A DNA stretch of 64,000 nucleotides from a virus, in IMG/VR virus record IMGVR_UViG_3300037628_000643, positions 40,022-104,021 of that record. One strand, given 5' to 3'. Position numbers and translations under genes: made by a program. The notes beneath the pieces are model-generated. The model was not told where the DNA came from and made no database searches. It worked only from the letters and a program-made list of their open reading frames with translations. This document shows, piece after piece, positions 45,993 to 63,731 of this stretch. Positions within the stretch are counted from its first letter, which is position 1. The number at the start of each line of letters is the position of its first letter.

Positions 45993-46241
45993 ATGAACTT
46001 AATTCTTTTTAGTGCGCCTGCGTGGTGCACTCCTTGTAAGATGCTTAAAAAATACGCAGATGAGAATAACGTTGAGTTCACTGCAATATATGATATTGAT
46101 ACAGAAGAAGGTGCAGCTATCGCTCAAAAATACGCCGTGAGAGGTGTGCCAATGGTGATTAGGTTGGATGATGACGTGGAAAAAGGAAGGTTACTAGGTA
46201 TGGATATTAATAAGTTTAATGAATTGAGGAATGCAAGTTGA
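45993..46241 (+). CDS. Thioredoxin-like protein (82 aa)
   Basis: Short thioredoxin/glutaredoxin fold with active site WCTPC (11-15) and cis-Pro in RGVPMVIRL. It overlaps the ribonucleotide reductase gene and is the likely electron donor for it. About the size of NrdH/glutaredoxin-like proteins. Confidence 0.85.
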   Translation: MNLILFSAPAWCTPCKMLKKYADENNVEFTAIYDIDTEEGAAIAQKYAVRGVPMVIRLDDDVEKGRLLGMDINKFNELRNAS

Positions 46242-47165
46242 GAACAGAGTTTACAAATGACTTCTCAGAAGAAGTATGGGCGTCAACATATAAGTACCAT
46301 AAAGATAAAAATGTTGACGATACATTAATGCGAGTAGCCAAGGCTGCAGCATCCGTAGAAAAAACAGAAGCAAAGAAGGAGGAATGGACTGAAAAGTTTT
46401 ACGATATGCTTGGTGGCTTCAAGAATACATCAGGTGGTCGCATATATGCAAATGCCGGTACTGATTATAATGGAGTCACACTTCTGAATTGCTATGTTGG
46501 CCCAGAGGTTACAGGCACTAAAGACAGCTTGGATGGCATACTTAAAGTCTTAAGAGATCAGGCGCAGACATTAAAATCAGAAGGAGGCTGGGGTTATAAT
46601 TTTAGCTTCATACGGCCCCGTGGAGCATTTATATATGGCGTTGGAGTAGAAACGCCTGGAGCCGTGCGATACATGGAGCTCTTTGATAAGTCCTCAGATA
46701 TTATAACTTCAGGAAGTGGGCTTAATGGCTCTGATAATAAGAATAAAAAAGGAAAGATTCGCAAGGGAGCTATGATGTCAGTTTTGGACTGTGCCCATCC
46801 CGACGTGATTGAGTTTATACAGGCGAAACAAACATCTGGCAGATTGTCAAAATTTAATATGTCTGTTAATTGCACTGATGAGTTTATGAATCTAGTTGCT
46901 AAAAACGATGACTCATTAGATTGGGATTTGATTTTTCCAGAAACAACACACCCTAATTATGACGAAGAATGGAAGGGTGATCTATCTGATTGGATAGAAA
47001 AAGGCTATCCAGTAAAGGTGTACAAAACAGTAAAAGTCCAGTGGTTATGGAATTTGATTATGGAGTCAACGTATAACAGAGCCGAGCCTGGAGTGCTTTT
47101 TTTAGATAGAGCAAATGATCTTAATGAGCTTAATTATTTGGTAAAAATAGTCGCGAGTAACCCGT
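46238..47165 (+). CDS. nrdJ: Class II ribonucleotide reductase, exon 1
   Basis: TTG start overlaps the thioredoxin stop. Key class II parts: GGRIYANAGTDYNGVTLLNCYV with the Cys of the redox pair, LKSEGGWGYNFSFIRPRG and ESTYNRAEPGVLFLDRAND. The exon ends SNPC (AAC CCG T), with the rest of the Cys codon coming from exon 2. Without splicing the frame stops at 47182. The spliced protein is 838 residues and reduces ribonucleotides with adenosylcobalamin; class II is inferred from the length, the motifs and the zinc-type C-terminus. No separate NrdB-type gene was seen. Confidence 0.85.
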
Positions 47166-47395
47166 TAAACCTAGCGGCCTGATGTAGTGATGCATCTTGA
47201 ATAACCCTGAATATCGGTGGAAGTCTGGAGGCAGATAATACCGAGACACAAGCGTAATGGCGAGGTCGTAGAGACTACCAAGGGGAATCTTTATAAGATT
47301 GTGGTATAGTCCGATCTGCATTTATAACCTAAAAAGAAGATGCAGAGACTAGCAGAGATGACTAGTCCACTCAGAGATGAGTAGTAACAATAATG
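47166..47395 (+). ncRNA. Group I intron in nrdJ, no ORF (230 nt)
   Basis: The exon 1 end CCGT (47162-47165) pairs with GCGG (47174-47177) as P1, with the usual U-G at the splice site. R and S cores are recognisable: GTCGTAGAGACTA (47265-47277) and the TATAGTCC element (47305-47312), joined by P7 GACTA (47273-47277) / TAGTC (47307-47311). The last intron base is G at 47395. Splicing 47165 to 47396 restores Asn-Pro-Cys-Gly-Glu-Gln in frame. No endonuclease ORF inside. Confidence 0.9.
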
Positions 47396-48984
47396 GTGGT
47401 GAACAACTATTAAGCCCAGCAGGAGTTTGCAATCTTGGTAGTATGAATATTGCAAAATTTGTAAAGAATGGAAAATTAGACAAAGAAGGTATTGAAAAAT
47501 ATGCAAGATACCTAACAAGATTTTTGGATAACATAAACTCACTAACGCTTGCTCCTTTGAAGGAATATAAAGAGTTTGCAGAGAAGTCCAGAAGAATAGG
47601 TGTTGGTATTTTAGGTTGGGCTTCTGCTCTGTACCTAATGAAAACACGATTCGGCTCCGATGAAGCTCAAGCCATACGCGACGACATGATGAAATTAATT
47701 TCTCATACGGTTGTTGATGAGAGTATCAATCTTGCGGAAGAAAAAGGCATGTTCGAATGGTGTGATCCAGAAAAGCATGCAGAAGCTAAGTGGTTTAAAC
47801 AGATTGGATTGCCTCAGTCACAGATTGAAAGAATTAAAAAGGTTGGCATACGAAATAGCTCTTTAATGAGTATTCAGCCTACTGGAAATACTTCTATATT
47901 TGCCAATATCGTATCTGGTGGATTAGAGCCTATTTTTGCAAAAGAATACGTAAGAACAAGTATTGTTAATGATATTCCAGAGAACCTAAAAGGAAAGATG
48001 CCGTCGTACTGGGAAGGCGAATTCGAAGAGACCGATTGGTTTAAAATGGAGAAAGAGGGCGATGATGATATTCTTAAATACACTGATGAAAACGGTATCG
48101 TATTTAAGATTGACAAGTCAAGAGGGTTAACGAAAGAAACTCTTTGCGAAGATTATGCAGTGCATAAAATGAAAGAGTCTGGCGAATGGGATTCGGATGC
48201 TGACTGGGCTGTAGATGCTATGAGTCTGGATGCTGAGCATCATATTAATGACTTTAAAGGTTTTGCTAAATATATAGACTCTGCAATTAGTAAGACAATC
48301 TGTCTTCCATTTGATTACAGTTTTGAGGACTTTAAAAATCTGTATTTAGATGGATACAATACCGGATATATCAAGGGTTTGACTACTTACCGATCTGGAA
48401 CCATGGCATCTGTTCTTTCTGAGAAGAAAGATAATGATGCAAAAGGTATTGATAGTGAGGTTATTATTCCGACTGACGTTAAGCTGCCGGATGACTCTCC
48501 TGCTCGTGTGAAGGTGCTAAGGGCAGAAGGAAGGAAGTGGTACTTAACCGTGACATATCATAACGATACTGATCAGCCGTTTGCCTTGTTTTGCAGAACT
48601 AACAGTAGAGAGAAGTCTGCTCAAACAAGTGACGCTGTTGAGCGGTTTGAATCTCTTGCAAAACGGAAAGGAATCAATATTGAGCATATTGAAAAAACTG
48701 TCGAGAAAACTTCTCACGAGAACAATATCGATAAGCTGACAAGAATGCTTAGCTTACTTCTTAGGCATGGAGTATCAATAAAAAATATTGTTAAAGAAAT
48801 CGATTGCATGGATGACGTTTATGCTGGGTCGTTCCTTTTTCAGATAAAGAAGTTTCTTAGTCATTATATTAAGGATGGAGAAGCTGTCGAAGGAGTTAAA
48901 TGTGAGTCCTGCGGATCTGAAAAAATAGTGTACAGCGAGGGTTGTAGTAAGTGCCTAGAATGTGGGTCAAGTAAATGTAGTTAA
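47396..48984 (+). CDS. nrdJ: Class II ribonucleotide reductase, exon 2
   Basis: Starts GT GGT GAA CAA CTA, completing PCGEQLLSPAGVCNLGSMN. It carries the large part of the barrel, KGLTTYRSGTMASVLSEKK, and a four-Cys C-terminus (CESCGSEKIVYSEGCSKCLECGSSKCS), a zinc ribbon typical of NrdJ proteins. Any ATG inside the intron that would open this frame alone is not expected to be used. It is followed by a terminator-promoter. Confidence 0.85.
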
Positions 48985-49396: not shown

Positions 49397-49474
49397 ATGG
49401 ATCACCAGTGGAGTGAAACGGATAAATCTTTGACATTAAGTATGTATGCATTTAGTATGCATACAATCAATTAG
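49397..49474 (+). pseudogene. 5' fragment of a split small gene
   Basis: ATG 49397 opens MDHQWSETDKSLTLSMYAF and stops at TAG 49472-49474 where the opposite-strand endonuclease gene ends. An 8-bp inverted repeat GTATGCAT / ATGCATAC (49444-49463 region) lies near the end. A probable 3' fragment is at 50162. Likely a gene broken by the insertion. Confidence 0.4.
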
Positions 49475-50114
49475 GGCATGTTTTTAAGTGCTCTTTAATC
49501 TCTTTTGGTCTTCCATAAAAATCGCAGTTAACGCACTGCGATTTTGTCATCGCTTCTTTTATTCTAGCCCTTCTAAGCCTTCCTTTTTCGCCTTCCCATC
49601 CGTTTTCTGATATCTTCTTTTTTGTTTCTTCTGTATGTTTTTTGCCATAAAATGAATTTCCCGCACCAGTTCTAGTTCCTTTTCTTACTAGTGAAAGATA
49701 GTCCTTTGTTTTTTTGCTATGTTTCTTTCCATAGAATCCATTTAGCTCTCCAGAACATGCATCTGATATTTTTTTTCTTGTGTTTTTGCTAAACCTTATA
49801 TCAATAGGCGCATTATTCCAATTACTCCATCCTGTGGTTCCTCCTAAGTCTCCACCAAGAGCCTGATTATATGTGTCAGCCCTTTTTATGAATTCAATAT
49901 CAACTATTTCAGCTTCTTTCTTATACATTTCTTCTTCTGATTCAAATGTATAGAGAACCTCTCTCGCAAAGTCATTCTTGTTGTATTTCTTAAGTGCGTC
50001 TAGGATTCCTTTTCCAGAGCCGAGATATCCATCATTTATGTCTTCTGTTTTATGTACACCAATATAGATCTTCCCATTGATTTTGTTTGATGTTTTGTAT
50101 AGTATATATAGCAT
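49467..50114 (-). CDS. GIY-YIG homing endonuclease (Seg-like, 215 aa)
   Basis: GIY-YIG core: ILYKTSNKINGKIYIGVHK and YLGSGKG, with Glu-containing AEIVDIEF. Two NUMOD3-type repeats follow (NGFYGKKHSKKT, NSFYGKKHTEET), and a C-terminal zinc unit with CVNCDFYGRPKEIKEHLKTC. It lies on the minus strand within plus-strand genes and appears to have split a small gene. Confidence 0.85.
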   Translation of the reverse strand: MLYILYKTSNKINGKIYIGVHKTEDINDGYLGSGKGILDALKKYNKNDFAREVLYTFESEEEMYKKEAEIVDIEFIKRADTYNQALGGDLGGTTGWSNWNNAPIDIRFSKNTRKKISDACSGELNGFYGKKHSKKTKDYLSLVRKGTRTGAGNSFYGKKHTEETKKKISENGWEGEKGRLRRARIKEAMTKSQCVNCDFYGRPKEIKEHLKTCPN

Positions 50115-50286: not shown

Positions 50287-50706
50287 ATGAACCTTAAATT
50301 CGAAGCTTGGGATACAGAAAATAATATTATGTATCGAGTTGGAGATGATTATGGAACGACATCACATCTAGAACCAATTAAATATCTATCCGAGGGTCAG
50401 CCGGTTATTGTGAGGCAGTATATTGGTATTGAATACCCTTGCGGCAGAGATATTTTTTCTGGAGACATTTGTCATATTGTAAAAGATCGCTTCGGAAAAG
50501 GCAAAGATGAAATATGGACTATTGAGTATGGATGCTTTGGTGATGCGAAGTATTATGTTTATAATCAGCTCAATTCATGCAGAGAGATAGAAACGGAATA
50601 TGGTGATGTTTATTTTATTGCATCAGAAGAAAGAGTATACATTGAGTATTTTGGTAATAAATATGAGAATAGCGGTATTATGAGTGGAGGAGTAAGTCAT
50701 GACTGA
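50287..50706 (+). CDS. YopX-like protein 2 (139 aa)
   Basis: MNLKFEAWDTENNIMYRVGDDYG and VRQYIGIEYPCGRDIFSGDICHIV follow the YopX family layout. More diverged than the one at 42312, in particular in the first strand (LKFEAWD instead of IKFRGW). Function unknown. Confidence 0.7.
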   Translation: MNLKFEAWDTENNIMYRVGDDYGTTSHLEPIKYLSEGQPVIVRQYIGIEYPCGRDIFSGDICHIVKDRFGKGKDEIWTIEYGCFGDAKYYVYNQLNSCREIETEYGDVYFIASEERVYIEYFGNKYENSGIMSGGVSHD

Positions 50707-51730
50707 CGCATACAAATTAAAAGCATACACATCAAAAGAGGGTGTTTTTGTAGCTGAGGTACAGAAGTATAGCTATGGATACTACCCAATTAAGTTTGAT
50801 GTTTATAGAATCAACGATAAAGACCCTAAATTAACAGCAAGCGGTTATTGGTTTTTCTTTCCAGATAAAGATATTTTTTCTGTCAAAAGAAAAGTTAATC
50901 CAAAGAATATTAATCATAGATACATCCTAAAAGATGATTCCATGAAGTCAAAAAAAATACCGTTAAAGCTATCGAGAGAAGATGTTGGGTATAGTCAAGA
51001 TAGTGACTATGATACATACTGGAAAAACTTTAGCAGCCTAAGATCATTGTATAAAGAAATATATGATACAACTGAAGGATCGTGGGAAGAGATTGATTTT
51101 ACCGTTGATGTAATCGGTGATATTGAAATTAGTGATTTATCTAAACCTGAGTCAATGGTGGTTTCTGTGCTTAATGATGAAAGTTGGACGCACCAAGGGG
51201 TAAAAGAAATAGATATAATGGATGTTGCTATATTTTCAGAGTTAGAGCAAATGCTCGTTCCAGAGTTTGCAATCCACAAGCGACCATGCTCTATTTCCTC
51301 AAAAATTACTTACAGTATCGTGCGACAGTATGTAAAAGATAATTTGAACTCATCAGTAGCTTTGATTACGTCTGATTATAAATTTTGCTTCACTGTTAAA
51401 AAGAAAGTAAAGATAAAGCCATACGAATTACGATCTGAACAAAAAAAATCAAACGGTAGAAGTTACGCAAAACCAAGAATATCTTCAAAGAATGTAGACC
51501 ATAAGCAAATTGAAGTATTTGCTATGACGCATGCTGGCGAAAATTACAAAGGATACATTCCAATTAAAGGATTCAAAGGTGAGTCCATTAACGACCTCAT
51601 TGAGAATGTTAAATTATACTTGGATGAACTAATGCAGCACATTAACTCAGACGTAAGCGAATGCGAGCATTGTAGTGGGTATGGGCACGTAATGACAGGG
51701 AGCCATAGTTTAAATGGAGAAAGAGTATGA
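50699..51730 (+). CDS. Hypothetical protein with C-terminal zinc-like motif (343 aa)
   Basis: The first 200 residues are beta-rich with many Tyr/Lys/Asp (YKLKAYTSKEGVFVAEVQKYS). The end has CEHCSGYGHV, a Cys-x-x-Cys pair. No family recognised; among the largest unknown genes in the early region. Confidence 0.55.
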   Translation: MTDAYKLKAYTSKEGVFVAEVQKYSYGYYPIKFDVYRINDKDPKLTASGYWFFFPDKDIFSVKRKVNPKNINHRYILKDDSMKSKKIPLKLSREDVGYSQDSDYDTYWKNFSSLRSLYKEIYDTTEGSWEEIDFTVDVIGDIEISDLSKPESMVVSVLNDESWTHQGVKEIDIMDVAIFSELEQMLVPEFAIHKRPCSISSKITYSIVRQYVKDNLNSSVALITSDYKFCFTVKKKVKIKPYELRSEQKKSNGRSYAKPRISSKNVDHKQIEVFAMTHAGENYKGYIPIKGFKGESINDLIENVKLYLDELMQHINSDVSECEHCSGYGHVMTGSHSLNGERV

Positions 51731-52161
51731 AAACACTAGAAAAGTTAAATGCCTTTGCCAAAAAGCATGAGGTTACTTTAATTGAAAAAGGAGAATGTGG
51801 ATTTGGGCGACCATGTGTAGGGTTCACCTCAGAGAGTGGAAATTATGTCGATTATAATCCAATACGCATGCATGGCGATTATGACTATATTCTTGAATAC
51901 GATGACAAGCTAGAGCCACCAGATAATATAGATGCATACCATAAGCACGAATGCTTTGCTGTATTGGTATCACACGATAATTATGCTACAGCACTGGGCG
52001 AACTTCTTGAATGGGTTGAGCATCTAGATTCGCAAGGTTCTTTATATCTATCTCCCTATTCAACTGGAGCAACTGGAATGCAGGCAATGATATCGGGAGC
52101 GACAGGATGGGCATTTAGATTTGAAGAAGATGATTTGAAATTGCCAGTAAAATTTGTATAG
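51727..52161 (+). CDS. Hypothetical protein (144 aa)
   Basis: Starts MKTLEKLNAFAKKHEVTLIEKGECGFGRPCVGF and includes YDYILEYDDKLEPPDNIDAYHKHECFAVL; alpha/beta. ATGA overlap with the previous gene. No known motif. Confidence 0.6.
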   Translation: MKTLEKLNAFAKKHEVTLIEKGECGFGRPCVGFTSESGNYVDYNPIRMHGDYDYILEYDDKLEPPDNIDAYHKHECFAVLVSHDNYATALGELLEWVEHLDSQGSLYLSPYSTGATGMQAMISGATGWAFRFEEDDLKLPVKFV

Positions 52162-52171
52162 GAGAAAGAAT

Positions 52172-52372
52172 ATGAAATTAGAAATTAAAGTAACTGGCCC
52201 TACTGGAAGCGGCACTGGATTCACTATTATTAAAATATTAGATTTTCTTAAAAATAGTGATGAATTTCAGTTGGCAAATCTTAAAGAGTGGGGAGATGAT
52301 GGTTATCATAATGAAAGTGTTGAGTGTGATATCTTGTGTCTCCTCGGTAATGAGAAGGACAATAAATCATGA
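52172..52372 (+). CDS. Hypothetical protein (66 aa)
   Basis: Start ATG 52172 after GGAGAA. Begins MKLEIKVTGPTGSGTGFTIIKILDF; the Gly-rich GPTGSGTG resembles a P-loop but lacks the Lys-Ser/Thr. ATGA overlap with the macro-domain gene. Confidence 0.5.
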   Translation: MKLEIKVTGPTGSGTGFTIIKILDFLKNSDEFQLANLKEWGDDGYHNESVECDILCLLGNEKDNKS

Positions 52373-52806
52373 AAACACTAACAAACACAAACGCAATTGA
52401 CTACATGCTAGCTGATGATAATCGTGCTCTTTTGCATGTTGTTAATTGCAAATCTGTGATGGCCTCTGGAATCGCATTGGAAATCAAAAACAGGATTCCA
52501 GAGGCATATAAAGAGTACTTGAAAGCAAATCAAAAGCTTGGTAATATTTCCTTTGGTGGTCGAGTGGTCAATCTTTATGCGCAAGACCTCTACGGAATAG
52601 GCAGGCGTCAACTGAATTACGGTGCTTTATCTGCGTGCTTCTCTTATTTCAAAATGCTTTGTGAAAATGAAACTTTTGAAATCGTAATCCCTTACCTAAT
52701 GGGCTGCGATAGAGCCGGAGGTGATTGGGAGGTCGTCATGGAATTAATTGAATTTGGATTAAGTGATTTTAATGTGACTATTTGTGCTATTGGAGATGTG
52801 AAATGA
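52369..52806 (+). CDS. Macro-domain protein (145 aa)
   Basis: Macro fold markers: LLHVVNCKSVMASGIALEIKNRIPEAYKEY (ADP-ribose-binding loop with Asn, Ala, Gly), FGGRVVNLYAQDLYG near residue 68 and PYLMGCDRAGGDW (the second loop). Such domains bind ADP-ribose or remove it from proteins or nucleic acids, or process ADP-ribose-1''-phosphate. Close to PRPP synthetase-like and NAMPT-like genes downstream. Confidence 0.8.
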   Translation: MKTLTNTNAIDYMLADDNRALLHVVNCKSVMASGIALEIKNRIPEAYKEYLKANQKLGNISFGGRVVNLYAQDLYGIGRRQLNYGALSACFSYFKMLCENETFEIVIPYLMGCDRAGGDWEVVMELIEFGLSDFNVTICAIGDVK

Positions 52807-53165
52807 GAGATATTTTATTCGAAATATACTTATGGATTCGTGTAACATTTAATCCTAAATATTGGCTGTCAAATTATTCAATATCAAAAGAATGGGATAT
52901 TCAAGTTAGGGCTGCAATATCCCATGGGGCCATAATTAAGAGGGTTGATCAGTACCGCATATCTATTGGTTGCTTGCAGGGTGTATGGGGTGCAAGCTAT
53001 CCTTGCGCATACTGTGAAGACCCTATAAAGAACGGTGTTCCAACAAGAAGAACAAGGCTGTTAGTTAGGATGCTTGAGGATAACTCTGAATCAGAAAATG
53101 CACAGAAGAAGCGGAGAGAGGATGTTTTTGATAAGATTATGGGGAGGCAAAATGAAACACGCTGA
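52803..53165 (+). CDS. Hypothetical basic protein (120 aa)
   Basis: Start ATG 52803 (MRDILFEIYLWIRVTFN) overlapping the macro gene stop by ATGA. Two Cys in YPCAYCED and a basic tail (KKRREDVFDK). No family. Confidence 0.55.
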   Translation: MRDILFEIYLWIRVTFNPKYWLSNYSISKEWDIQVRAAISHGAIIKRVDQYRISIGCLQGVWGASYPCAYCEDPIKNGVPTRRTRLLVRMLEDNSESENAQKKRREDVFDKIMGRQNETR

Positions 53166-53310
53166 AAAAGCCATCTGCTGCATTGACGCAGCTCTAGCTG
53201 AAATTGAGAGCGCTATAAAAGAAGATCCTGCTCATATAGATTGGTACTTAGCTGCGAAGGAAAAACTTATTTCCGCAGATAGTTATCTTACATATTGCAT
53301 TGAAGATTAA
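53152..53310 (+). CDS. Small protein (52 aa)
   Basis: Start ATG 53152 after GGGAGG, MKHAEKAICCIDAALAEIES; helical, three Cys. Directly upstream of the PRPP synthetase-like gene. Confidence 0.55.
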   Translation: MKHAEKAICCIDAALAEIESAIKEDPAHIDWYLAAKEKLISADSYLTYCIED

Positions 53311-53327
53311 TTAGGAGGAACTAATAA

Positions 53328-54197
53328 ATGAATTTCAAACTAATATGCACAACAAGAAATAATTATGAAATCAAATACAGCCGCAAGACATTTGCAGGAG
53401 GTGAGGTTCAAGTAAAGCTACTTAAGTATCCTGTCGGAGACACTTTTGGGCCAGTACTGATTGATGGCTTAATTAAGTCGTCTGATATGTTGATGGAGTT
53501 ATTACTGCTAGCTAATGCACTTCATCACTCAGGCAAGAGTGGGAAAATATCGGCTAATATTCATTATTTGCCGTATGCTAGGCAAGACAGGATATGTACT
53601 TTAGGAGAGTCTTTTGCATTAGAAAACTTCATGCATACACTGACTAATAGTTGCTTGGAGCACATTATAGTTGAGGATGTTCATTCTGACGTAGCCATAT
53701 TGTTGGCAAATAAAATTCACTCCGGTGGATGCTGGAGCTTTATCAGTCAGACGGATATAGTCTCTCCGCACATTCCGCAAGGAGTCACACTAATTTCTCC
53801 AGACAAAGGTGCTTTAAGAAAAACAATTGCATCCGCCATTGCTACTGATAATAATTTTGTCACCTTTAATAAAGTTCGAGATCCGCATTCTGGTTCTATT
53901 TCTGGTACAGAGATTATTGATGGAGAGGAATTTGTTGATGGCAAAGTTTGTTTGATACTGGATGATATTCTCGATGGAGGGCGTACGTTTGTGCCAATTA
54001 TAGAAAAACTGTTTGACAAAGGAGCTAAGGCAGTATATCTTTACGCAACTCACGCAATCCTTCCTTATGGGTTAGATGCTGTAATGAATGTAGGATGCGA
54101 TGGAGTCTTTTACAAAAACAGCTTTAGAGATGACACTGATGGAGAATTGTTCTATCATGTCTCAAAAATGAAATCAACACTGGAGGAAAAACTATGA
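53328..54197 (+). CDS. prs: PRPP synthetase-like protein (289 aa), possible Adps
   Basis: Motifs of ribose-phosphate diphosphokinases: NIHYLPYARQDRI (ATP site), FNKVRDPHSGSISG, and the PRPP loop LILDDILDGGRTFVP. In cells it makes PRPP from ribose-5-phosphate. In the described NAD+ reconstitution pathway 1 of phages the homologous enzyme, Adps, makes ADPR-pyrophosphate from ADP-ribose for a NAMPT homolog. The next gene is such a homolog with an ATGA overlap. Which substrate is used cannot be told from motifs. Confidence 0.82.
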   Translation: MNFKLICTTRNNYEIKYSRKTFAGGEVQVKLLKYPVGDTFGPVLIDGLIKSSDMLMELLLLANALHHSGKSGKISANIHYLPYARQDRICTLGESFALENFMHTLTNSCLEHIIVEDVHSDVAILLANKIHSGGCWSFISQTDIVSPHIPQGVTLISPDKGALRKTIASAIATDNNFVTFNKVRDPHSGSISGTEIIDGEEFVDGKVCLILDDILDGGRTFVPIIEKLFDKGAKAVYLYATHAILPYGLDAVMNVGCDGVFYKNSFRDDTDGELFYHVSKMKSTLEEKL

Positions 54198-55957
54198 CTA
54201 AAATTATTACATCGCCGATCTTTGACACCGATTTTTATAAAGTAGGACACGCCAGCCAATATCCAAAAGGCACTAAAAAAATCTACTCAAACATGACGCC
54301 AAGAAGCGCTCGGCTATTCAAGGGGAGTAAATTCTTTGACGATAAGGTTGTTGTGATTGGCTTGCAGTCATTTGTCCAAGAGTATTTGATTGATACTTGG
54401 AATAATGAATTCTTTAAAAAATCGAAAGAAGAGATTATAGAAGCATATATCGAAACCATGGATTTTTCCTTGGGCGAAGGAGTTGTTCTTCCAGATCACG
54501 TTGTAGCGCTTCACGACTTGGGTTATTTGCCGTTACGAATCAAAGCAATCGAAGAAGGTAACCGAGTCAATATCCGAGTTCCAATCACTACGATTACCGA
54601 GACTATCAGCGAGTTTTTCTGGCTTGTTAATTACCTTGAGACTCCAAAATCTTCAGAACTGTGGCACCCAATGACAAGCGCAACAACAGCCTTTGAATTT
54701 AAGCGTATCTTTGTAGATGCAGCCATTAAAACAGGATCTCCAGTTGATTTCGCAGCTCTACAGGGTCACGATTTTTCAGCTAGAGGGATGCAAAACAGGC
54801 AGTCTGCCTCTAAAAATATAGGACACCTACTCCCTTTTATTGGTACAGATACTATTTCGGCAATCCAATGGATTAAGAAGTATTACTTTCCTTCTGAAGG
54901 AGATCCAGTAGGGGTTAGCGTGCCAGCAACAGAGCATTCTGTTAGCTCTCTGAATATTGCGCTAAATATGATTCGAACAGGATGCTCACAACTGGAAGCT
55001 GAGCGTCAATTCATTAAGCGACTAATTACTGAGCAATATCCCACTGGAATTGTGTCAATTGTTAGTGATACATATGATTATTACAGCATTATAACCGAAG
55101 TAATTCCTTCGTTAAAAGAAGAAATTATGTCTAGACAGCCTAATGCTATTGGCTTGAACAAGGTTGTTGTTCGACCTGATAGCGGAGATCCAGTCAGGAT
55201 TATTTGTGGCGATGAATTCAAGACTATAAAGAACGAACCAGACACGTTAGATGAATGGAAGGAGTGGGTAGCAGAGTCTATGGACGACCAGTTCCGCACT
55301 AATCTTGATGCAGAAGAGCCTCATTCGTCAGAAACAGAGCTATGGCAGCGTGGAAATGAATACTACAAAGTAACATACGAGCCAGATCTAAATCGCCATG
55401 ATAAGCAATATTATTATGTTGATAACTACGGCTCAGCTGTTAGTAGGTGCGAATTCACTGGAATTACTCCAACACCTGAGCAAAAAGGCTCAATCCAGTG
55501 TTTGTGGGAAACATTCGGTGGCACAATTACAAGTACTGGGCATAAGTTGCTCGATGAGCATATTGGTCTTATCTATGGTGATTCAATCACTCTGGCGAGA
55601 GCTCAAGAAATTATGGATCGACTAGCTGATAAAGGTTTTGCTAGTGGTAACGTAGTTATGGGTATCGGGAGTTATGAATATGGGATGAAATCACGAGACA
55701 CCTTCGGCTTCGCAATCAAGGCAACGTATGCAGAAGTTGACGATTTAAAGATCGATATCTACAAAGACCCAAAAACTGGAGATGGAACAAAGACTTCGGC
55801 AAAAGGTTTGTTACGAGTTGAAAAAGAAGGCGATGACTATGTGCTTTATGATCAACAGGAAACAGATGAGGGCGGAGAGCTGAAGGTCGTCTTCGAAGAT
55901 GGAGTTGCGCACAACATCCAAACTTGGGATGAAATTAAAGCGCGATTAAATAAGTAA
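54194..55957 (+). CDS. nadV: Nicotinamide phosphoribosyltransferase-like (587 aa), possible Namat
   Basis: NAMPT signatures: DTDFYKVGHASQYPKG, LQGHDFSARGMQNRQS, GTDTISAI, VPATEHSVSS, VVRPDSGDPV, GDSITLARAQEIMDRL and MGIGSYEYG. It would join nicotinamide with PRPP (or with ADPR-pyrophosphate if this is the Namat type) to restore NAD. It is a two-gene unit with the PRPP synthetase-like gene. Length is slightly above the usual 490-residue enzyme, with an insertion of ~90 residues near 350-440 (DEWKEWVAESMDD and on). Confidence 0.88.
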   Translation: MTKIITSPIFDTDFYKVGHASQYPKGTKKIYSNMTPRSARLFKGSKFFDDKVVVIGLQSFVQEYLIDTWNNEFFKKSKEEIIEAYIETMDFSLGEGVVLPDHVVALHDLGYLPLRIKAIEEGNRVNIRVPITTITETISEFFWLVNYLETPKSSELWHPMTSATTAFEFKRIFVDAAIKTGSPVDFAALQGHDFSARGMQNRQSASKNIGHLLPFIGTDTISAIQWIKKYYFPSEGDPVGVSVPATEHSVSSLNIALNMIRTGCSQLEAERQFIKRLITEQYPTGIVSIVSDTYDYYSIITEVIPSLKEEIMSRQPNAIGLNKVVVRPDSGDPVRIICGDEFKTIKNEPDTLDEWKEWVAESMDDQFRTNLDAEEPHSSETELWQRGNEYYKVTYEPDLNRHDKQYYYVDNYGSAVSRCEFTGITPTPEQKGSIQCLWETFGGTITSTGHKLLDEHIGLIYGDSITLARAQEIMDRLADKGFASGNVVMGIGSYEYGMKSRDTFGFAIKATYAEVDDLKIDIYKDPKTGDGTKTSAKGLLRVEKEGDDYVLYDQQETDEGGELKVVFEDGVAHNIQTWDEIKARLNK

Positions 55958-56454: not shown

Positions 56455-56994
56455 ATGAAGAAGATAAAATCTGGATTTACATTAATTGAGTTAATGGTCA
56501 CCGTCGTGGTTATTGGTATTTTAGCAGCTGTTGTGATTCCTCAGTTCACAAAAGAAAAGGCTCCAGTATCCACAAAAATTGAACAGTCGCAGAAAGCCGC
56601 TGAAGCCGCTGAAAGTATCTCCTTTTCAGCAAATGCTGAGATTGATAACATTAAGAGTCGTCTTGAGCTAACTAGCGATCCAGCTTTGACGGGATTTGTC
56701 TTGCTAATGAATGAAGCTGGTCAACCGATTATGTATTCTGGGGTAGTTGGAAAGATTACGTCTGGTGGTAAGCGATTAACAAAGCCATACAAGCTAACTA
56801 GAGGTGATAAAGGTCAATACTCAGGTGATTTTGTGACAGATGCCCCATCAGACGAAGGTACGTGGGGTAGCTCTTCGCCGTATATCTATTTTTGGACGCC
56901 TACTGGTCAATATATCCAGTGGAATGGAAAATACTTATACAGTGATCAGCCATTTAGAACAACTGTCGAGCCTTTAGTTATTAGTGTTCAGTAG
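56455..56994 (+). CDS. Type IV pilin/pseudopilin-like protein (179 aa)
   Basis: A class III signal: MKKIKSG then FTLIELMVTVVVIGILAAVV, with cleavage after Gly7, Phe8 as new N-terminus and Glu12 as the +5 Glu. Then a helix (SQKAAEAAESISFSANAE) and a beta-rich C-terminus (SSPYIYFWTPTGQYIQWNGK). It should be processed by the host prepilin peptidase. Pilins are rare in phages. It might insert into host type IV pili or a type II secretion pseudopilus and block phage or DNA uptake. Its terminator follows. Confidence 0.82.
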   Translation: MKKIKSGFTLIELMVTVVVIGILAAVVIPQFTKEKAPVSTKIEQSQKAAEAAESISFSANAEIDNIKSRLELTSDPALTGFVLLMNEAGQPIMYSGVVGKITSGGKRLTKPYKLTRGDKGQYSGDFVTDAPSDEGTWGSSSPYIYFWTPTGQYIQWNGKYLYSDQPFRTTVEPLVISVQ

Positions 56995-62771: not shown

Positions 62772-63731
62772 ATGACAGAGTTCAAGAAGTTTCCATCAAT
62801 AGAGCAGTTTCGCCATACAGTTAGAGCTGTAAAAAAGCATTGTGAGTACAATGAACTTAAGCTGCCGACTATCGAGTTTAAAGGCACAGTTAAACTTCAC
62901 GGGACAAATGCTGCGATAGGTTACGATCCAGTTGCGAACGAAGTGTTTGTTCAGTCAAGAAAGAATATCATTACGCCAGAGAATGATAACTACGGTTTTG
63001 CGGCTTTTGTTGAAGAGCGTAAGTCAAAAATATCAAAAGATATGTGGCTCGCATTTGGAAATGGCACAGAGACAGAGCATGTATTCGGAGAATTTTGCGG
63101 AGGAAATATCCAAGGTGGAGTTGGTGTTAGTGGGCTGGAAAAGATGTTTGTTATCTTTGATGCAGATCCTTTTGTGACGCAAAGCATGTGTATTCGACAC
63201 GAGAATATCCACTCTATCAATGACTTTACAACATTCAAATGCGAAATCGACTTCAATAACCCTGAATTTTCAATTGAAAAATTGCAAAAAATAACAGAAC
63301 AAGTTGAAGCGGAATGCCCTGTAGCCAAACACTTCGGTGTCGATAACGGAGTTGGCGAAGGTGTAGTCTGGAATGCAGAGTTCGAAGGTATGCATCTTTC
63401 ATTTAAAGTTAAAGGCGAAAAGCACAGCTCGTCAAAAGTGAAAAAATTAGCTTCTGTTGATGTGGAAAAAGTAAATTCCATCAATGAATTCGTTGAAAAA
63501 ACAGTGACAGAAAATCGCTTAAATCAAGGTGTCGAAGTGGTGTTTACTATGAATAACGAATCTCCAGACATCAAAAAGATGGGTGACTTCATTCGCTGGG
63601 TGTTTAATGATGTATTGAAAGAGGAAGTGGATACCCTGACTGAAAATGGATTGAGCAAAAAAGACATCGGGAGTAAAGTTTCATTAGCAGCACGAGATTG
63701 GTTTAAATCTTACTTGGATAAAAATCTATGA
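62772..63731 (+). CDS. RNA ligase, Rnl2-like (319 aa)
   Basis: Nucleotidyltransferase motifs of RNA ligases: Lys41 in KLHGTN (motif I, adenylated Lys), GEFCGGNIQ, EGVVWN (IV) and SFKVKGE (V). The size is close to T4 Rnl2. The enzyme would join broken RNA, for example tRNA cut by a host anticodon nuclease. It is downstream of tRNAs and the protein phosphatase. Confidence 0.85.
   Translation: MTEFKKFPSIEQFRHTVRAVKKHCEYNELKLPTIEFKGTVKLHGTNAAIGYDPVANEVFVQSRKNIITPENDNYGFAAFVEERKSKISKDMWLAFGNGTETEHVFGEFCGGNIQGGVGVSGLEKMFVIFDADPFVTQSMCIRHENIHSINDFTTFKCEIDFNNPEFSIEKLQKITEQVEAECPVAKHFGVDNGVGEGVVWNAEFEGMHLSFKVKGEKHSSSKVKKLASVDVEKVNSINEFVEKTVTENRLNQGVEVVFTMNNESPDIKKMGDFIRWVFNDVLKEEVDTLTENGLSKKDIGSKVSLAARDWFKSYLDKNL

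Follow-up and report, generated by a model that had tools for sequence, protein, structure and literature searches.

Predicted NARP1 gene pair of an uncultured phage and the recurrent association of macrodomain genes with NARP1 in phages

Two overlapping genes in the DNA of an uncultured phage probably form a NARP1 module, the phage NAD+ reconstitution system composed of Adps and Namat; we put the probability of this reading at roughly 78%. The DNA analyzed, referred to below as the window, comprises bases 40022-104021 (the last 64 kb) of the 104,021-base IMG/VR virus record IMGVR_UViG_3300037628_000643. An initial annotation had described a macrodomain gene followed by genes resembling phosphoribosyl pyrophosphate (PRPP) synthetase and NAMPT, and had proposed the latter two as a NARP1 candidate. 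The three genes are indeed present, all on the + strand and with the macrodomain gene upstream of the pair (matches to phrog_335, phrog_619 and phrog_448, respectively), and the NARP1 proposal is supported by the pairing of the genes, the catalytic residues, the frame of the selectivity clamp, the nearest solved structure and the lack of a match to nicotinamide mononucleotide (NMN) adenylyltransferase. What the analysis shows directly is the homology, the coupling of the genes, the residues of the active site and clamp, the fold and the recurrence of the trio; the catalysis, the substrates and the anti-defence role discussed below are what we infer. NARP1, which is reportedly known from Osterman et al. 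2024, acts broadly against several unrelated defences by restoring NAD+ in their wake, and the pair should be regarded as a further example of a known system. The features considered are as follows, with ORF standing for open reading frame and ADPR-PP for ADP-ribose (ADPR) pyrophosphate (papers cited by PMC number are used from excerpts throughout).

50287-55957, + strand: coupled run of nine same-strand genes, with spacing of -14 to +17 bases, the Namat-like gene being the last and followed by an 81-base gap
52369-52806, + strand: macrodomain gene (145 amino acids), ALC1-like class, with the invariant residues His23, Asn26 and Gln72
52582-52584, + strand: codon of macrodomain Gln72, which a profile alignment places onto the catalytic Gln85 of SCO6735 (numbering of PMC9411070)
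52803-53165, + strand: small ORF (120 amino acids) in the macrodomain-Adps interval, its start overlapping the macrodomain stop; no Pfam match
53152-53310, + strand: small ORF (52 amino acids) preceding the Adps-like gene; no Pfam match
53328-54197, + strand: Adps-like gene (PRPP synthetase homologue, 289 amino acids), phrog_619, predicted product ADPR-PP
54194-55957, + strand: Namat-like gene (NAMPT homologue, 587 amino acids), phrog_448, predicted to convert ADPR-PP and nicotinamide to NAD+
54311-54313, + strand: codon of Arg40 in the selectivity-clamp loop, equal to Arg40 of SPbetaL1 Namat (role from PMC12774641)
55190-55483, + strand: 98-residue stretch following RPDSGD in the Namat-like protein, the insert noted in the initial annotation
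55667-55699, + strand: selectivity-clamp helix GSYEYGMKSRD, for which the consensus is GSXphiXphiXphiTRD (PMC12774641); Tyr494 is kept, Met498 and Ser500 differ

The Adps-like and Namat-like genes overlap by 4 bases (ATGA, 54194-54197), just as first described. The start of the macrodomain gene lies on the stop codon of the preceding gene and its end on the start codon of the next, and 521 bases, with the two small ORFs inside, separate its end from the Adps-like gene. Given the tight gene spacing, the macrodomain gene thus belongs to the same coupled run, though it does not adjoin the pair directly.

If the pair is NARP1, a host defence NADase would split NAD+ into ADPR and nicotinamide, Adps would move pyrophosphate from ATP onto ADPR to give ADPR-PP, and Namat would join ADPR-PP to nicotinamide to yield NAD+, in two steps that do without an NMN adenylyltransferase. 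The NMN adenylyltransferase family PF01467, which was detected in 14 of 14 controls, has no match in the 104-kb record (which may be incomplete), as expected for NARP1.

The counts given below derive from two scans that yielded 115 Namat loci, the window included; two contigs that appear twice among them (L022/L122 and L023/L123) were reduced to single entries by clustering. As a control, we used 80 loci with a NARP2-type Nampt. Scans of viral contigs with the single window Adps or macrodomain protein found no relatives, while alignment queries (Namat and macrodomain) did find relatives.

On sequence grounds, the NAMPT-like protein is probably a Namat. It matches phrog_448 (nicotinamide phosphoribosyltransferase) with E 3.4e-175 and NCBIfam PRK09198 with 479 bits (cut-off 405), while megablast gave short matches only, each of them in a phage with Salmonella or Shigella in its name, with the features annotated under the NAMPT gene. 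The best PDB matches of its model (predicted local distance difference test score, pLDDT, 92.7) are 9w5x and 9w5w, Namat of the Bacillus phage SPbetaL1, with 39% identity and a TM score of 0.93 (by target), followed by HdNadV (34% identity) and then human NAMPT (25%). SPbetaL1 Namat was crystallised with nicotinamide and with NAD+, and its selectivity clamp reads the adenine of ADPR-PP (PMC12774641). Of 22 SPbetaL1 positions compared, which belong to the active site or lie close to it, the window protein shares 18, including the equivalents of SPbetaL1 Arg306, Asp215, His245, Asp308 and Arg40, and the four that differ are (SPbetaL1 to window) A362 to S464, F392 to Y494, Y396 to M498 and T398 to S500. 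The catalytic core is likewise conserved, with window F194, R197, D219, H248, R327, D329, D463, R501 and D502 matching their SPbetaL1 equivalents.

As to the clamp, the window has the stacking residue R40 of the selectivity-clamp loop, S493 of the GS motif and an aromatic residue, Y494, at position 3 of the selectivity-clamp helix. Of its three stacking side chains, the clamp thereby retains two (Arg40, and Tyr494 in place of Phe392), with Met498 as the third. The helix starts with GS[YFW] in 113 of the 115 Namat loci, the remaining two being gaps. At the equivalent site, the 80 Nampt loci have GGG (38), GGA (36), GSG (5) or another start (1), and the window, with GSY, does not have the GGG or GGA start of the Nampt-type helix that marks NARP2. 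The initial annotation had further noted that the NAMPT-like protein departs from the usual enzyme in its length and insert. This holds relative to SPbetaL1 Namat, in which 17 residues stand in place of the 98, but not for phage Namats at large, among which the stretch spans 17-137 residues and is often near 98 (77 of the 115 loci could be measured); the insert was thus dropped as an unusual trait.

The PRPP-synthetase-like protein matches phrog_619 (PRPP synthetase; E 3.6e-59) and falls short of the TIGR01251 cut-off (105.1 bits vs 113). Its ribose-5-phosphate loop reads DDILDGGRT, compared to DDMIDTGGT in E. coli Prs, such that the canonical DTGGT is absent. In 132 Adps-like ORFs, the loop is DGGRT (53), DGGGT (19) or DGGAT (15), with 27 ORFs lying outside the pattern, their type uncounted. 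No Adps structure exists according to PMC12774641. The comparison with Adps/Namat and Prs/NadV that had been suggested as a check, made by sequence and, for Namat, also by structure, came out in favor of NARP1, with SPbetaL1 Namat as the best match and a partner without the Prs marks. An Adps-like gene is found no more than 2.5 kb from Namat in 94 of the 97 full-flank Namat loci, and near none of the 59 full-flank Nampt loci.

The assignment of the pair to NARP1 has some weak points that should be considered. The full helix consensus, with an aromatic residue at position 7 and TRD, is missed by the window at two positions, Met498 and SRD. Position 7, described as "most often aromatic" in PMC12774641, is Tyr in 71, Cys in 13, Phe in 8, Met in 8 and another residue in 14 of the 115 Namat loci (one gap), and Ser replaces the Thr of TRD in 12 of the 115; single clamp mutations lower activity only 1.3-1.7 fold (PMC12774641). 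As Met498 and Ser500 are off consensus, it is the donor preference of the window Namat that we infer. Furthermore, in our Namat trees, which are quick trees, HdNadV (structures titled with NMN and with nicotinamide) nests beside SPbetaL1 Namat. Clade membership alone therefore does not fix the donor, whether ADPR-PP or PRPP, and tree placement was dropped as proof of ADPR-PP use. The loop of SPbetaL1 Adps is SSFGGT, so DGGRT is no strict mark of Adps and was dropped as such a signature; the loop of the window protein tells us that it is not a standard Prs, and nothing further. Finally, NAD+ fell during infection by PaP1 despite such genes in this related phage, as stated in the paper on phage Adele (PMC12846349).

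The clamp deviations and the position of HdNadV would also suit an ordinary NadV, which would make NMN from PRPP supplied by the PRPP-synthetase-like protein, with the host adenylating the NMN, and Namats can still form NMN in vitro (PMC12774641). We nonetheless consider this improbable, as the window keeps clamp residues Arg40, Ser493 and Tyr494, whereas the HdNadV helix (PDB 9ke8/9keo) reads GAQTYQRNTRD and has an aromatic residue at neither position 3 nor position 7 (the window keeps one of these aromatics). The partner protein, moreover, is without the Prs loop DTGGT and below the TIGR01251 cut-off, no Adps-like gene is found near the NARP2-type Nampts (0/59), and the record offers no NMN adenylyltransferase match. 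HdNadV, compared here with L040 and lacking both clamp aromatics beside SPbetaL1 Namat, may itself be a reversion to PRPP use. For the question of what sets the choice of ADPR-PP over PRPP, the window Namat is of use as a natural Met/Ser clamp.

Compared to known systems, the window shares with SPbetaL1 NARP1 the adjoining Adps and Namat genes, the 18 of 22 active-site positions, R40 and the GS-aromatic clamp start, and differs from it by the longer stretch, by Met498/Ser500 and by the upstream macrodomain gene and two small ORFs; the 10.4-kb SPbetaL1 segment examined showed no macrodomain. NARP1 of the pakpunaviruses (Pseudomonas phages Adele and PAK_P2) does come with a macrodomain, yet in the order Adps-Namat-macrodomain; in PAK_P2, the macrodomain belongs to a different tree clade and clamp position 7 is Cys. 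The best Adps match of the window (44%, the next being 36%) is in the trio of L052 (IMGVR_UViG_3300028285_000067), in which the macrodomain is 45% and Namat 50% identical and the order is Adps-macrodomain-Namat, rather than the macrodomain-Adps-Namat of the window. Nampts of Vibrio phage nt-1, Klebsiella phage KP1 and Aeromonas phage 50AhydR13PP have the NAMPT fold and catalytic core as in the window, but GGGLLQ in place of GSYEYG and SRGGKF or ARGGKF in place of TPRSAR, and the sampled Nampts have no Adps beside them. For these three, as for Caulobacter phage BL64, the NARP2-type label is our own reading from the motif and the lack of Adps.

The macrodomain protein, judged by fold and active-site residues, is probably an active hydrolase that releases ADPR. 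It matches phrog_335 (E 4.8e-31), a family annotated as "phosphatase", and structural matches of its model (pLDDT 96.0) place it with ALC1-like hydrolases, in the SCO6735/BT1257 subclass, with Z scores of 20.4 for BT1257, 18.6 for TARG1, 17.7 for Poa1p, 17.6 for SCO6735 and 17.2 for DarG. In a profile of 40 relatives, His23, Asn26 and Gln72 are invariant (40/40) and align with His24, Asn27 and Gln85 of SCO6735, this residue mapping being our own, in which the chain numbering is shifted by a constant 20. SCO6735 Gln85 occupies the site of the catalytic lysine of TARG1 and DarG (DarG residues were taken from PMC5179494), its replacement by Ala abolished activity towards DNA as well as protein, and SCO6735, which strips ADPR from DNA, surpassed the two other enzymes compared with it in efficiency on DarT-modified DNA (PMC9411070). 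The similarity to SCO6735 and BT1257 thus concerns the fold and the His, Asn and Gln residues, at about 20% identity; both are bacterial, and the excerpt of PMC9411070 describes no link to NARP1.

The suggestion of the initial annotation that the macrodomain gene belongs with the pair can be upheld in the form of a recurrent association across phages. Since the Pfam Macro family has no match to the window macrodomain, Pfam was not used for this survey. Instead, phrog_335, which is independent of the choice of loci, was searched in 74 whole Namat-bearing records, mostly the longer contigs (records of 34-49 kb that were left out include L030, L052, L065, L071, L088, L094, L107 and L125). Exactly one match was found in 42 of the 74 (27/40 and 15/34), and in 19 of these 42 the macrodomain lies within 2.5 kb of Namat, where uniform placement expects 3.16 (P 1.8e-11). 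When Namats were clustered at 60% identity and the farthest macrodomain was kept, 10 of 28 were near, against 1.99 expected (P 1e-5). A macrodomain ORF is held by 35 of the 115 Namat loci. It should be noted that A3 and A4, the macrodomain profiles behind the local counts, were built partly or wholly from NARP1-adjacent macrodomains, so the reciprocal macrodomain scan is not independent and was left uncounted.

When all ORFs up to 3 kb from Namat were considered for 79 clusters at 70% identity, the most frequent neighbors were Adps (73), the macrodomain (17) and a HAD-like family (10), followed by two RNA-ligase families and one nucleoside-deoxyribosyltransferase-like family, with 7 each, and others with 6 or fewer; some of these labels come from Pfam. 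Compared to the control, a macrodomain is near 26 of 97 Namat loci and 3 of 59 Nampt loci with full flanks (Fisher P 0.00055), or, by clusters, near 17/73 and 1/25 (P 0.036). The Nampt lineage with a macrodomain (78-81 bases upstream of the gene) is seen in L235, L263, L276, L278 and L283. We had considered a macrodomain exclusive to NARP1 and dropped this because of that lineage; the macrodomain link favors NARP1 and is not exclusive to it. Two other neighbors may be mentioned here. The third commonest neighbor of Namat, a family labeled by eye as HAD-like phosphatase, includes L014 9278-9721 and occurs in nine further clusters, and the nucleoside 2-deoxyribosyltransferase-like gene (PF15891; L027 9203-9697 and six other clusters) could be a helper acting on glycosidic bonds.

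All 30 macrodomain genes found within 2.6 kb are on the strand of Namat. Their gene orders are Adps-Namat-macrodomain (17), Adps-macrodomain-Namat (7), macrodomain-Adps-Namat (3: the window, L074 and L090) and Namat-Adps-macrodomain (1), with Adps out of reach in the remaining two, and some trios (L039, L052 and L116) have overlapping genes. In a tree of 75 macrodomains, of which 33 are found no farther than 2.5 kb from Namat or Adps and 42 are not, the near label must change 11 times (bootstrap range 11-13), with at least 8 of these changes forced by well-supported branches. The window macrodomain falls in a supported group with those of L116, L090, L132, L127, L052 and L134. Such repeated gain, or gain and loss, with adjacency kept suggests a job shared by the macrodomain and NARP1.

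The chemistry suggests what this job may be. ADPR is the usual product of macrodomain hydrolases, and, as it is also the substrate of Adps, the two activities fit. The macrodomain would most likely hydrolyse 1''-linked ADPR derivatives, such as ADP-ribosylated DNA or RNA, protein adducts or ADPR-1''-phosphate (which might also arise, as we suggest, from the breakdown of ADPR-PP), to free ADPR, and would thereby both clear a defence mark and feed Adps. That the window macrodomain feeds ADPR to the pair is, in our estimate, close to an even chance but slightly below it. More tentative still is the broader proposal that NARP1 is a three-part system in many phages, in which a recurrently recruited Gln-type macrodomain would strip ADPR from host-made marks, e.g. 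those of DarT on phage DNA, with the freed ADPR serving as direct feedstock for NAD+, such that repair and cofactor recovery would be coupled. There is a precedent in RyDEP of the mycobacteriophage DyoEdafos, a glycosidase whose gene lies within the NARP1 operon; it converts cyclic ADPR to ADPR and, together with Adps and Namat, gave NAD+ in vitro (PMC13232231). RyDEP resembles the proposed macrodomain as an ADPR-releasing third gene, and differs from it as a RyR-domain glycosidase of another fold. Should the macrodomain indeed supply ADPR, phages would recover also the ADPR locked on modified DNA, RNA and small molecules, and NARP1 would be a sink for several attacks. From the recurrent trio one would expect an ADP-ribosylated substrate to be turned into NAD+ in a coupled reaction.

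Several observations tell against the macrodomain as supplier. It is absent from 32 of the 74 Namat records by phrog_335, lies 6-217 kb from Namat in 23 of the 42, and, in the Nampt loci that have it, stands without Adps and within a single cluster. The null of uniform placement, in addition, ignores the clustering of early genes. RNA ligases, too, recur near Namat, in two types (7 and 7 of the 79 clusters), and this would suit a macrodomain that acts as a clean-up enzyme on ADPR-1''-phosphate from RNA repair and merely shares an early-gene block with NARP1. The "phosphatase" annotation of phrog_335 agrees with such a role, as does an RNA-ligase-like ORF at 62772-63731 of the window, about 7 kb downstream of Namat (KLHGTNAA motif, by eye). 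However, the macrodomain outranks either RNA ligase as a neighbor of Namat (17 vs 7), and in several lineages it lies between the NARP1 genes or overlaps them, which leaves the RNA-repair role unlikely, although it deserves attention.

An antidote to DarT, DarG-like and useful alone rather than as an ADPR supplier, seems to us equally unlikely. The NCBIfam DarG model (NF048014) does match, with E 6.1e-11, DarG and SCO6735 are among the closest folds, and the latter, as mentioned, was the best of three on DarT-modified DNA. Moreover, DarTG is a phage defence, and phage-encoded anti-DarT factors exist, one being carried by ICP1 (PMC11481870). Yet the match amounts to 42.2 bits, far under the cut-off of 250, and this role leaves the repeated placement beside Adps and Namat unexplained; for AdfB of ICP1, the excerpt of PMC11481870 reports that it works by a direct interaction and makes no mention of a macrodomain hydrolase. 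Least probable appears a macrodomain that binds or degrades the cyclic ADPR signals of Thoeris. RyDEP does act on such a molecule beside NARP1, and macrodomains are found in Thoeris systems (PMC11204291), but RyDEP is of the RyR-domain type rather than a macrodomain (PMC13232231), and no sequence feature found in this analysis indicates cyclic ADPR.

The idea that a macrodomain provides ADPR to NARP1 is already published as speculation for one phage, as the macrodomain gene downstream of NARP1 in Pseudomonas phage Adele was said to possibly release ADPR for NARP1, with Poa1p residues cited (PMC12846349); here, it is extended to many lineages. The macrodomain link, the shuffled gene orders and the catalytic-type glutamine make this published guess easy to test. 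In Rheinheimera phage Barba19A, the three genes are listed in a row, with no link drawn in the excerpt (PMC6715854). A survey of viral NAD-ADPr systems, likewise seen in excerpt, reports NADAR genes beside NAD+ salvage genes and leaves macrodomains beside Adps unmentioned, and the excerpts of PMC7824862 and PMC13292451 contain nothing that alters the interpretation. Our literature search, with most subscription journals outside its coverage, found no survey of the trio, and we claim no priority.

Other observations concern the surroundings of such genes. In L003 (5099-8316), an Acinetobacter contig filed as phage, Adps-like and Namat-like genes are followed by an NMN adenylyltransferase/ADPR pyrophosphatase gene, with transporter genes around them, and this locus looks chromosomal. 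In the window, just past the Namat block, 56455-56994 encodes a protein resembling type IV pilins (N-methylation motif PF07963 with E 5e-8; phrog_3433 pilin), an unusual phage cargo. Upstream of the coupled run, in the region 46238-48984, a ribonucleotide-reductase-like gene is apparently split into two ORFs (46238-47182 and 47377-48984, by eye), near which, at 49467-50114 on the opposite strand, lies a homing-endonuclease-like ORF (by eye), pointing to a possible intron or disruption.

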